A DNA stretch of 33,700 nt from Lachnospiraceae bacterium (GTDB taxonomy: Bacteria > Bacillota > Clostridia > Lachnospirales > Lachnospiraceae): assembly GCA_017440375.1 (NCBI GenBank), contig JAFSHK010000034.1, positions 1 through 33,700 of the forward strand, read 5' to 3'. Shown piece by piece: positions 14,812 through 17,118 of the stretch (the first letter of the stretch is position 1; each line of letters begins with the position of its first letter). Made by a program: the position numbers and the translations under genes. Below the pieces are notes generated by a model. It was not told the origin of the DNA. It saw only the letters and a list, made by a program, of their open reading frames with translations, and did not search any database.

Positions 14812-14840
14812 CAGGTAAAAACATATTATGTTAATACCTG
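14812..14840 (-). terminator. Probable terminator of the rhomboid-like/sigma-like/unknown gene cluster
   Basis: The arms CAGGTA/TACCTG and AACAT/ATGTT nest around a 3-nt loop with symmetrical AA internal bulges, forming an 11-bp imperfect hairpin. On the minus strand it is followed by TTCTTTTATAT. It lies 128 nt after the stop of the last gene of the cluster. The interval 14841-14968 also contains a TTTGACA/TGTCAAA inverted repeat and a small ACGCA/TGCGT hairpin but no coding sequence that I can support. The A-rich internal loop makes this weaker than the other terminators in the window. Confidence 0.5.
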
Positions 14841-14968: not shown

Positions 14969-15451
14969 TCAGACACTAAATGCCATCATATGTAACTTTG
15001 ATATAATAATCTCCTGTATTTTCACTCCCTGCTTCTTTTTTTGTGCAAGATTCATCTGCACAAATTCTTTTAAAGGAATTACCTTGTCCTGATAAACCAG
15101 CTTCTTTTTCCCCAAAAGAGATTTTTTCTCAACAAGCACACACACCTTCACCTTAGCCTTTAGTTGCATAAATGTTCGATACGAAAATTGCTCTTCTGTC
15201 ATATAATAAAACTGACTCTCTAAACTGGTTTCCAAATCCGTATCCTTCATAATATAATGCTCAATAATACATTTAATTTTAAAAGGCACCATCTCATGTT
15301 CCATCAAATCTCGGTAATTATAGCGCGCCCCAAAATAAAGTGTTCCTGCATCCTGCATATAATACTTAAAATCATTATCCTGATATGCCATTTTCTCTTG
15401 TGTTACTTCACGGTTATTGTTTTGTATTTCTTTTACATCAATCTCCGACAC
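14969..15451 (-). CDS. Unknown protein translationally coupled to a sigma-like gene
   Basis: This is a 160-residue protein with no family I recognise. The start is a GTG (15449-15451) that overlaps the end of the upstream sigma-like gene by 14 nt and has GGAGG 9 nt before it, inside that gene. Earlier in-frame codons lack a ribosome binding site. The N-terminus is polar (VSEIDVKEIQNNNREVTQEK). The core is aromatic-rich (FKYYMQDAGTLYFGARYNYR, then SQFYYMTEEQFSYRTFMQLK) and the second half is basic (KKSLLGKKKLVYQDK, NLAQKKKQGVKIQE). There is no signal peptide or membrane helix, so it is cytosolic. The overlap suggests a product needed in proportion to the sigma-like protein, perhaps a binding partner. 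Confidence 0.75.
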   Translation of the reverse strand: MSEIDVKEIQNNNREVTQEKMAYQDNDFKYYMQDAGTLYFGARYNYRDLMEHEMVPFKIKCIIEHYIMKDTDLETSLESQFYYMTEEQFSYRTFMQLKAKVKVCVLVEKKSLLGKKKLVYQDKVIPLKEFVQMNLAQKKKQGVKIQEIIISKLHMMAFSV

Positions 15452-16190
15452 TTCCGTTTTCCTCCAACGACTCAATTTTGCCGGCAGTAATACGAATCGC
15501 ATCCATAACTGCTTTTCTGCTCATACCGGTTTCTTCTATCAGTTCTTCTACAGTTACTTTGCGATGCAAGTCCTCCGCCAGTTCATTGGCTTTCTCTGCT
15601 ACCTTGTTAACTTTATCTGCAATTTTCCGGTCTTTTTTCACTTCCTCCACGTTTTCGGAAATATAGTCTTCCATGGCATCCATAATCATCTTACCAAGCA
15701 TCCCCTGCGCCTCAGCAACATGTTCCATCGCACCCAGCATAGAAACACCCATTGTAACAGCCACATTTCCTTCTCCGATTAAATCTTCCAGAAATACACC
15801 CTGTCCCGCATACAATTTGGCAATCTCAACTACTTGTGGCAAAAAAATCTGAATCAACTGATTCTGGGCATTCAAATCTCCTGCCATAGCCGAAAGAGTA
15901 ATGGCTTCTTTCTCTCCTTCTGAAAATTCCGGCAACTCCTTAAGCTGTTGTAAATATTCTTCCAAATAATCTACTTCTTCTTCACTTAAATAATCATCCA
16001 GATTGACCGGCTCACCGATACCGATTTTGTGTTTATGCAGATAATCAAACACCATCGCAAGCTGTTCTTCTGTTAAGTCCAGTTCCAAGAAAGCTTCTTC
16101 TACCTGTTCTTTTGCTATCACATTACCCTGCTCTTTTGCAACTTTTTTGACCTTTTCCAAGGTCTGTGCAAATAAGATTTCTTTATTCAT
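15438..16190 (-). CDS. Degenerate sigma-70-like protein lacking promoter-recognition regions
   Basis: This 250-residue protein matches sigma-70 factors in order. Residues 5-60 resemble region 1.1. Residues 74-145 resemble regions 1.2 to 2.2, with LKELPEFSEGEKEAITL, then GDLNAQNQLIQIFLPQVVEI and IAKLYAGQGVFLEDLIGEGN. Residues 193-244 resemble region 3 (KANELAEDLHRKVTVEELIE, then TGMSRKAVMDAI, ending SLEE). The stretch at the place of regions 2.3-2.4 (about 146-192) has normal length but lacks the tryptophan/tyrosine-rich FSTYAxWWIRQAI sequence, and there is no region 4. It should therefore keep the main core-RNA-polymerase contact (2.2) but not recognise or melt a promoter. It may act as a competitor or modulator of sigma binding. 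It overlaps the next gene by 14 nt. Confidence 0.75.
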   Translation of the reverse strand: MNKEILFAQTLEKVKKVAKEQGNVIAKEQVEEAFLELDLTEEQLAMVFDYLHKHKIGIGEPVNLDDYLSEEEVDYLEEYLQQLKELPEFSEGEKEAITLSAMAGDLNAQNQLIQIFLPQVVEIAKLYAGQGVFLEDLIGEGNVAVTMGVSMLGAMEHVAEAQGMLGKMIMDAMEDYISENVEEVKKDRKIADKVNKVAEKANELAEDLHRKVTVEELIEETGMSRKAVMDAIRITAGKIESLEENGSVGD

Positions 16191-16260: not shown

Positions 16261-17118
16261 TTATCTTTTCACATGTGTATGAGTATATAAATGTTCTTCG
16301 CAATATTCATAATTTCCTTCACACTTTGAACAAAAACGGAACTGCATATTCGGACTGTCCTCTTCTGTTCTGCCACAGATAGCACATTTATGTTTCGTAA
16401 TACCGGTATTACGCTTTACCTCACGTTTAAATTCCTGTCGTCTGTGTATCTGCTTCGGATTCATATGCATCATATTTCTAGATGTTAAGAAGAACACCAC
16501 AAAGTTGAGCAGAGATGCCGCAATCGCAAACTTTGTGTTGATATTTCCCTGCAAGAAAGAGAATAACAACATAATTCCATAAATAACACCCAGCCATTTT
16601 ACCTTAATCGGAATAATAAACATCAAAAGTACCGACACATCCGGGAAGGTCGCTGCAAAAGCAAGGAAAATAGACATGTTGATGTAGTAGGTACTAAAAT
16701 ACAAGGAAACGATTGTAAAATAATAATCCCCACCAACTGCTGCTAACGCATCTCCATTAAAAAGATAACTATATCCCATCAGTAAAAAGCTTCCTACAAT
16801 TGTAAATAGCATACCCTGTAACAAATACACATTATAGCGGTATGTTCCCCACGTACGCTCTAGTGTCGTACCGATGGAGCAATAGAAATATAGCATCAGC
16901 AATGTTAAAAAGATATTGGATTCACTCGGTGGAATCAAAATCCATGTAAATAATCTCCACACCTGACCATGCAAAATAGCATACGGATTCAATGTCAGAT
17001 ACCATATTAAATTAGGTAGTAACATTTCAATCAAATATCCTATCGCATAACAAATTACTAACACAAAGGAAATATTACGAATTGCATATTTACCAAACTT
17101 TTTTTCAAACGAACTCAT
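16261..17118 (-). CDS. Rhomboid-like membrane protein with C-terminal zinc ribbon, probably protease-dead
   Basis: This 285-residue protein has about six membrane helices in residues 15-212. Rhomboid hallmarks are visible: GQVWRLFTWILIP in the L1 region and AATFPDVSVLLMFIIPIKVKWLG around TM4-TM5. The catalytic serine motif (usually GxSG) reads NMSI near residues 147-150, and the last-helix histidine is missing (KFAIAASLLNFVVFFL), so proteolysis is unlikely. The soluble tail carries CAIC (Cys245, Cys248), CSKC (Cys263, Cys266), Cys273 and several histidines, a probable zinc ribbon facing the cytosol. The ATG at 17116-17118 has AGGAG 9 nt upstream. It sits 70 nt above the sigma-like gene on the same strand and could tether a regulator at the membrane. 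Confidence 0.75.
   Translation of the reverse strand: MSSFEKKFGKYAIRNISFVLVICYAIGYLIEMLLPNLIWYLTLNPYAILHGQVWRLFTWILIPPSESNIFLTLLMLYFYCSIGTTLERTWGTYRYNVYLLQGMLFTIVGSFLLMGYSYLFNGDALAAVGGDYYFTIVSLYFSTYYINMSIFLAFAATFPDVSVLLMFIIPIKVKWLGVIYGIMLLFSFLQGNINTKFAIAASLLNFVVFFLTSRNMMHMNPKQIHRRQEFKREVKRNTGITKHKCAICGRTEEDSPNMQFRFCSKCEGNYEYCEEHLYTHTHVKR

Follow-up and report, generated by a model that had tools for sequence, protein, structure and literature searches.

A SigA-derived protein family of Lachnospiraceae with conserved clamp-contact residues, a replaced 2.3-2.4 segment and no detected region 4

The stretch of Lachnospiraceae DNA analysed here (33,700 nucleotides; the window) encodes a 250-residue homologue of the main sigma factor SigA in which most residues facing the beta' clamp of RNA polymerase are kept, the 2.3-2.4 segment is replaced, and region 4 is absent. 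The protein belongs to an unnamed family which, within the samples examined, is restricted to Lachnospiraceae; literature searches, with subscription journals mostly outside their reach, found no paper on it. Judged from these sequences, we hold it an even bet that this SigA paralogue would dock on the beta' clamp without initiating transcription and would act there as a competitor or occupancy factor, with a block in one subgroup (type A) that may dock a partner. Such a shortened copy of the main sigma factor, devoid of its DNA-reading parts, may tune the amount of polymerase free for initiation in many gut Lachnospiraceae. Table 1 gives the features concerned.

Table 1. The sigma-like gene, the parts of its product, and two neighbouring genes in the window
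Feature	Position	Strand	Basis
Downstream orphan protein, 140 aa ('DSTR')	14969..15391	-	Neighbourhood and 60-genome survey
Sigma-like CDS, 250 aa, type A family member	15438..16190	-	NCBIfam, structure-chain sequence match, SigA profile
Regions 3.0-3.1, residues 186-240	15471..15635	-	Alignment, region-4 search
Replaced 2.3-2.4 segment, residues 151-185; without WW, acidic	15636..15740	-	Family alignment
New conserved block in the 2.3-2.4 segment: GMLGKMIMDAMEE; window version GMLGKMIMDAMED	within 15636..15740	-	
Regions 1.2 to 2.2, residues 74-150	15741..15971	-	SigA alignment, family conservation
Beta' clamp-contact motif DLIGEGN, D136-N142 (E. coli D403-N409)	15765..15785	-	Conservation in 164 members
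Region 1.1-like part, residues 1-60	16011..16190	-	SigA alignments; Pfam region 1.1 in 55/95 relatives
Upstream rhomboid-like membrane protein, C-terminal Cys/His tail	16261..17118	-	Pfam rhomboid at 0.1

Homology to SigA and selection on the gene

The sigma-like open reading frame (ORF) opens with an ATG codon. An earlier note on this DNA had described its product as a sigma-70-like protein with regions 1.1, 1.2-2.2 and 3; regions 1.1, 1.2-2.2 and 3.1 are present. The protein matches many sigma-70 models of NCBIfam, with RpoS (2.8e-13) and RpoD (5.2e-11) far below these models' curated cut-offs, and a sequence comparison with proteins of solved structure matches its residues 9-238 to SigA chains (1.3e-8). 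Its single-sequence matches to Sigma70_r3 (0.004) and Sigma70_r2 (0.012) stay under the Pfam cut-offs; among 95 relatives, Pfam matches at E <=0.01 were obtained for sigma region 3 in 87, for region 2 in 69 and for region 1.1 in 55. A profile of 56 relatives was compared with one of 11 SigA proteins (hhalign) and aligned at a probability of 99.9 and an E-value of 6.4e-31 over 239 columns, which run from region 1.1, passing through 2.3-2.4, to the end of 3.1. This significant similarity over regions 1.1-3.1 places the family among the SigA-derived members of sigma-70. The alignment to the SigA of the same genome that the note had proposed (full-length SigA, G000:C21, locus L002) gives 25% identity over residues 74-239. 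From the sequence profiles, a preserved sigma2 fold is predicted.

The ORF is a real gene under strong purifying selection: over the first 243 codons, comparison with the relative at L032 gives a dN of 0.049 and a dS of 1.04. A pseudogene is ruled out by the ORFs of 243-260 aa found in 98 of 111 relatives and by a dN far below dS.

Clamp-contact residues, segment 2.3-2.4 and region 4

Conservation was read from 164 aligned members, comprising 108 of close type A (the window protein included), 21 of far type A and 35 of type B. The 108-row set came from 111 loci with a hit, from which L001 (the window), L002 (SigA), one 309-aa ORF and one 175-aa ORF were left out; of 60 distant loci, four were unusable, L127 and L167 for want of an ORF call and L135 and L171 for being too short. 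A further alignment, A1, took every second of 80 close loci and omitted L154 and L158.

Residues D403, E407 and N409 (E. coli numbering) are exposed on the sigma face toward the clamp. D403 is found in all 164 members, N409 in 163, E407 in 161 and, at another clamp-contact position, L384 in 159; the equivalent of D403 in the window protein, D136, is the sole invariant column among 95 diverse members. Among the type B proteins, the 28 taken from the 60-genome sample described below retain D403, E407 and N409 in 26 cases each; six of their ORFs, of 170-199 aa, begin too far downstream to include region 1.1. The remaining clamp residue of group 1 and 2 sigma factors, Q406, divides the family, with Gly in 129 of 129 type A members and Gln in 33 of the 35 of type B. 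The M413 position carries A, T or S in 106 of the 108 close type A proteins. Both positions are said, in work attributed to Sharp and colleagues from 1999, to matter for core binding by E. coli sigma70. Since Q406 has become Gly throughout type A, the interface is altered there, and unchanged core binding is not to be assumed.

According to an excerpt of a review (PMC4598750), the helix of region 2.2 contacts the beta' coiled coil and segment 2.3-2.4 captures -10 DNA. The Trp pair of this segment (W433-W434), present in 11 of 11 SigA proteins, is found in none of the 164 members. The segment is one residue longer than in SigA and, in the window protein, contains none of the aromatics of the melting set, in agreement with the earlier description of a 2.3-2.4 part of the right length without a Trp/Tyr-rich melting sequence. 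The set of promoter contacts that marks group 1 and 2 sigma factors (F427, Y430, W433, W434, Q437 and T440) is not found in the family. Type A lacks F427 in 129 of 129 members and has E, D or Q at the T440 position in all; in type B the contacts other than the Trp pair are scattered, with F427 kept in 8 of 35 and a Tyr at Y430 in 10 of 35. The loss, whose uniformity among homologues had been raised as a question, is thus complete as regards the Trp pair, but type B keeps single aromatics in part.

In type A the segment was not merely lost, as had been supposed, but replaced by a strongly conserved acidic block (EAxGMLGKMIMDAMEE in this subgroup, to which the window protein belongs). Close type A proteins have G163, M170 and M173 in 108 of 108 cases, E174 in 107 and D171 in 103. 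Mean identity over 2.3-2.4 is 61% within the close family and 12% to SigA, the corresponding values for 2.1-2.2 being 68% and 44%. The net charge of the 2.3-3.0 segment is +3.7 in SigA, -5.3 in close type A, -8.0 in far type A and -5.3 in type B. In type A, then, it was this segment specifically that was lost, and selection acts on what took its place.

The protein ends where region 4 should begin, as had been claimed: about 10 residues follow region 3.1, and regions 3.2 and 4 are absent. A region-4 profile derived from the tails of 11 SigA proteins was searched against ORFs and against stop-to-stop translations in all six frames, taken from 172 sources (the window plus 171 loci). It gave no match in the sigma-like protein or in the six frames of the window, and across the 172 sources it matched only the genome's own SigA (L002) and, weakly, an opposite-strand stretch in L055 (E 0.0014). 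That weak antisense stretch aside, the six-frame search rules out the frameshift or second nearby gene supplying region 4 which the note had named as fatal to its reading. The family protein has no region 4 for the -35 recognition expected of a functional group 1 or 2 sigma factor, and the nearby region-4 subunit expected of a split sigma factor of the SigO-RsoA type was not found in the 172 sources. Of 10 type B members scanned with Pfam, 4 gave region-4 matches, which fall on the helix-turn-helix of region 3.1; such matches were also obtained in three members of alignment A1. The type B protein at L187 (356 aa) extends about 106 residues beyond region 3.1 without a region-4 match. The central proposal of the earlier note, that core-binding regions are kept and promoter recognition is lost, stands as a family-wide sequence pattern, with contacts near invariant, no Trp pair and no region 4 found. 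It does not extend to an unaltered interface in type A, given the Gly at Q406.

Distribution, origin and gene neighbourhood

The best 80 of 136 confirmed places in genome contigs are 57-90% identical and bear titles naming Lachnospiraceae (67), Butyrivibrio or Acetatifactor (5) or broader labels (8). Distant members (25-50% identity) occur in other Lachnospiraceae genera. Within a sample of 60 Lachnospiraceae genomes, 59 of at least 95% completeness plus the window's own at 68%, at least 39 hold one copy, a lower bound set by the search cut-off (E 1e-25). Ten of these are type A, taken from the search listing and from previously fetched loci, and 29 are type B, of which 28 were read as described next and the last is G054 (the same as L149). 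The other 21 genomes gave no copy; their frames were of SigA size or, once read, turned out to include region 4. Lachnospiraceae can therefore do without the factor. Thirty-six sigma ORFs read from this sample separate into 28 without WW and without region 4, and 8 with region 4 and either WW (7) or YW (1); mixed cases, with WW and no region 4 or the reverse, were not seen among them. As the 28 were picked by their short frame, the missing region 4 is partly a result of selection, which does not hold for the missing WW. Across 148 genomes from the class, of which 143 are non-Lachnospiraceae, the matches listed outside Lachnospiraceae have frames of SigA size, at least 351 aa, with three short exceptions, namely G462 (at a contig edge), G499 and G410 (the latter two 312-314 aa).

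As to origin, the type B gene of L146 adjoins what we take, from sequence, to be a dGTPase-like (dgt-like) gene, and that of L164 adjoins a presumed dnaG with the N-terminal part of a presumed rpoD behind it. In a quick tree of 90 rows, whose root position is not fixed, L146 and L164 cluster with SigA (SH-aLRT 92), and type A lies with L139 and L140 on one side of a branch with a support of 97. These data would fit a sigA copy that arose by duplication near dnaG-rpoD and was then truncated, relocated and diverged; the gene setting of L146 and L164 and their clustering with SigA are in keeping with such a duplication.

Some further observations concern sigA itself. In genome G319 (L164:1019-2974, L221 and L222), the dnaG-adjacent rpoD gene breaks off directly behind the region 2.3 codons for TWW. 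The break in G319 is adjoined by a 445-aa serine-recombinase-like gene, the rest of rpoD lies about 39 kb off, and a second, full-length sigA-like gene is found elsewhere in that genome. Tandem pairs of SigA-size frames occur at G067:C2:379845-381756 and also in G508:C23, G483:C7 and G530:C1. Two unannotated faecal records entitled 'Bacteriophage sp.' (MT837372.1 and MT835772.1), which may be bacterial contigs, contain a distant relative of 26-27% identity. A phage or plasmid origin was rejected; no plasmid matched. A link to sporulation is likewise unsupported: TIGR02885 (E 1e-50), counted by hand, occurs in 28 of 39 holders versus 11 of 21 non-holders (Fisher 0.16), and the distribution of the family is not tied to carriers of SigF/SigG. 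A scan for Spo0A was positive in 39 of the 60 genomes.

At the best 80 of the 136 loci, some of them cut by contig ends, the same-strand neighbours are the rhomboid-like gene (76), an M16C peptidase (74), the downstream 140-aa gene (70), a DUF4349 protein (67) and Era (57), and at 66 loci there is an activase gene pointing the other way; the peptidase, DUF4349, activase and Era labels are presumed from sequence. The rhomboid-like gene is ruled out as a specific partner: it is found in 58 of the 60 Lachnospiraceae genomes, so its adjacency says little. By eye its product is without GxSG, and the zinc-ribbon-like Cys/His tail is invariant in 60 of 60 aligned proteins.

The sole specific partner candidate found is the 140-aa protein. 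Its gene occurs in 8 of the 60 genomes, all of type A and all with the gene adjacent to the sigma-like one, that is, in 8 of 10 type A versus 0 of 50 other genomes (Fisher 1.8e-8, kinship ignored). It is also adjacent in 15 of 21 far type A loci; being missing from the other six and from two of the ten type A genomes, it is not obligatory. The family has the consensus motif DFKYxMQD...GARY...FKxKSI. The protein has no match worth naming in Pfam, NCBIfam, PHROG or PDB; one of 36 family members matches a ribbon-helix-helix model (0.0022), and the region-4 profile found no region 4 in the family. That the two proteins might complement each other in charge was considered and dropped: the 140-aa protein is basic in close relatives, but in distant ones it mostly ranges from acidic to neutral. 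An inverted repeat, CAGGTA...TACCTG, lies at 14812-14840, in the gap that separates the 140-aa gene from the peptidase gene.

Proposed role and comparison with known systems

We infer core binding, competition and partner binding, with docking read from the selection on the contact residues. The SigA paralogue would dock on core RNA polymerase through its retained region 2.2, at the beta' clamp helices, and its region 1.1 and region 3 domain would stay attached. Once docked, it should be unable to recognise or melt promoters, because the contacts of 2.3-2.4 and 3.0 are replaced and regions 3.2 and 4 are missing. Occupancy of the sigma site would then lower the core pool for SigA and other sigma factors. 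In type A, the acidic 2.3-2.4 block may serve to dock another protein, perhaps the 140-aa product, that would switch the paralogue on or off. Among the three roles that had been proposed for the window protein (competitor, anti-sigma decoy, and elongation or pausing factor), that of a competitor or occupancy factor probably fits best. A broader reading, held tentatively and at a little under even chances, is that in most Lachnospiraceae a DNA-blind, vertically kept SigA paralogue sets the amount of initiation-competent polymerase, the rebuilt 2.3-2.4 segment being its control port. Literature searches turned up no description of a non-sigma subunit, derived from sigma, that controls transcription.

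The newly conserved 2.3-2.4 block, and a 140-aa gene that in the 60-genome sample keeps to type A genomes and adjoins the sigma-like gene, would also suit a two-subunit factor, in which the sigma-like protein attaches to core and its partner, seated on the rebuilt 2.3-2.4 (in type A, the 140-aa protein), adds DNA or signal reading. There is a precedent in SigO-RsoA, where, according to an excerpt of a review (PMC8103513) and a title in its reference list, the 2.3-like segment of RsoA binds SigO. However, the 140-aa family has no region 4 and, its single ribbon-helix-helix hit included, no convincing DNA-binding match; its gene is absent from some type A genomes and from all 29 of type B in the sample; and the type A member L115 has the block without having the 140-aa gene. 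On balance a two-subunit factor is unlikely.

An anti-sigma decoy, that is, a SigA mimic titrating an anti-sigma factor or another SigA-binding regulator by a PhyR-like logic, would account for the overall SigA-like sequence and the retention of regions 1.1, 2 and 3. However, the anti-sigma factors that bind SigA use, to our knowledge, region 4, which is absent here. Residues of region 2.2 could themselves have been retained for an anti-sigma contact, since RseA and ChrR contact this region in the review excerpt (PMC4598750). Against this, inspection of the conserved neighbours of the sigma-like gene revealed no anti-sigma-like gene, and PhyR gave up the core-binding determinants that this family retains (excerpt of PMC8103513). 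The decoy, although among the roles first proposed, leaves the kept core contacts unexplained and is in our view quite unlikely.

A modulator of elongation or termination, bound to the clamp helices after initiation like NusG and reading no DNA, would share its predicted docking site with NusG and would put neither a region 3.2 finger nor region 4 in the RNA path. It is improbable because the window protein and its type A relatives retain region 1.1, which belongs to sigma in its free and initiating states. Moreover, sigma-dependent pausing at -10-like elements requires 2.3-2.4 residues lost here, which also disfavours the pausing role, with reading of -10-like DNA, that had been put forward. 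A sigma scaffold repurposed without any RNA polymerase role could be read, for type A, from the Gly that replaces Q406 and the small residues found at M413 and, for type B, from the drifted motifs and the copies lacking region 1.1, but is very improbable with D403 as the sole invariant column of 95 and E407 and N409 close behind.

The preferred reading, of a SigA paralogue that docks on the clamp without initiating, may be set beside known systems. With SigA/RpoD (group 1 sigma-70) the family shares regions 1.1, 1.2, 2.1, 2.2 and 3.1 and most clamp-contact residues; unlike SigA/RpoD, it has no WW pair or 2.3-2.4 promoter contacts (scattered remnants in type B apart), is acidic instead of basic, and is devoid of the 3.2 finger and region 4. 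NusG/RfaH-type factors bind the clamp helices and act in elongation; the predicted polymerase site is shared, but the fold is unrelated. RsoA of Bacillus subtilis SigO-RsoA is likewise a sigma protein without region 4, and its 2.3-like segment serves protein contact, as indicated by the title of a paper (Xue 2016) referenced in PMC8103513. In the excerpt of that review, RsoA partners a separate sigma4 protein, SigO (PMC8103513), whereas no region-4 protein was found near the family genes in the 172 sources, the weak L055 stretch aside. The sigma-like domain of PhyR from Alphaproteobacteria, a decoy, is likewise without a function in transcription initiation. It is ECF-like, is accompanied by a receiver domain, and has promoter and core regions that are both degenerate according to the same excerpt (PMC8103513), whereas nothing in the present family is better conserved than its core-binding motif. 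Pfam gave no receiver-domain match in the window protein, and the core-contact residues are conserved, which speaks against a PhyR-type mimic. If true, the preferred reading would make the family a naturally occurring separation-of-function tool for work on the sigma/clamp interface; its Gly and Gln subgroups at Q406 permit direct binding comparisons. The sigma-derived proteins compared here either initiate transcription, also in split form as in SigO-RsoA, or mimic sigma after loss of the core contacts, as in PhyR; the Lachnospiraceae family would be the reverse case, in which core contacts are kept and DNA is given up, providing these gut bacteria with a built-in regulator of polymerase availability.
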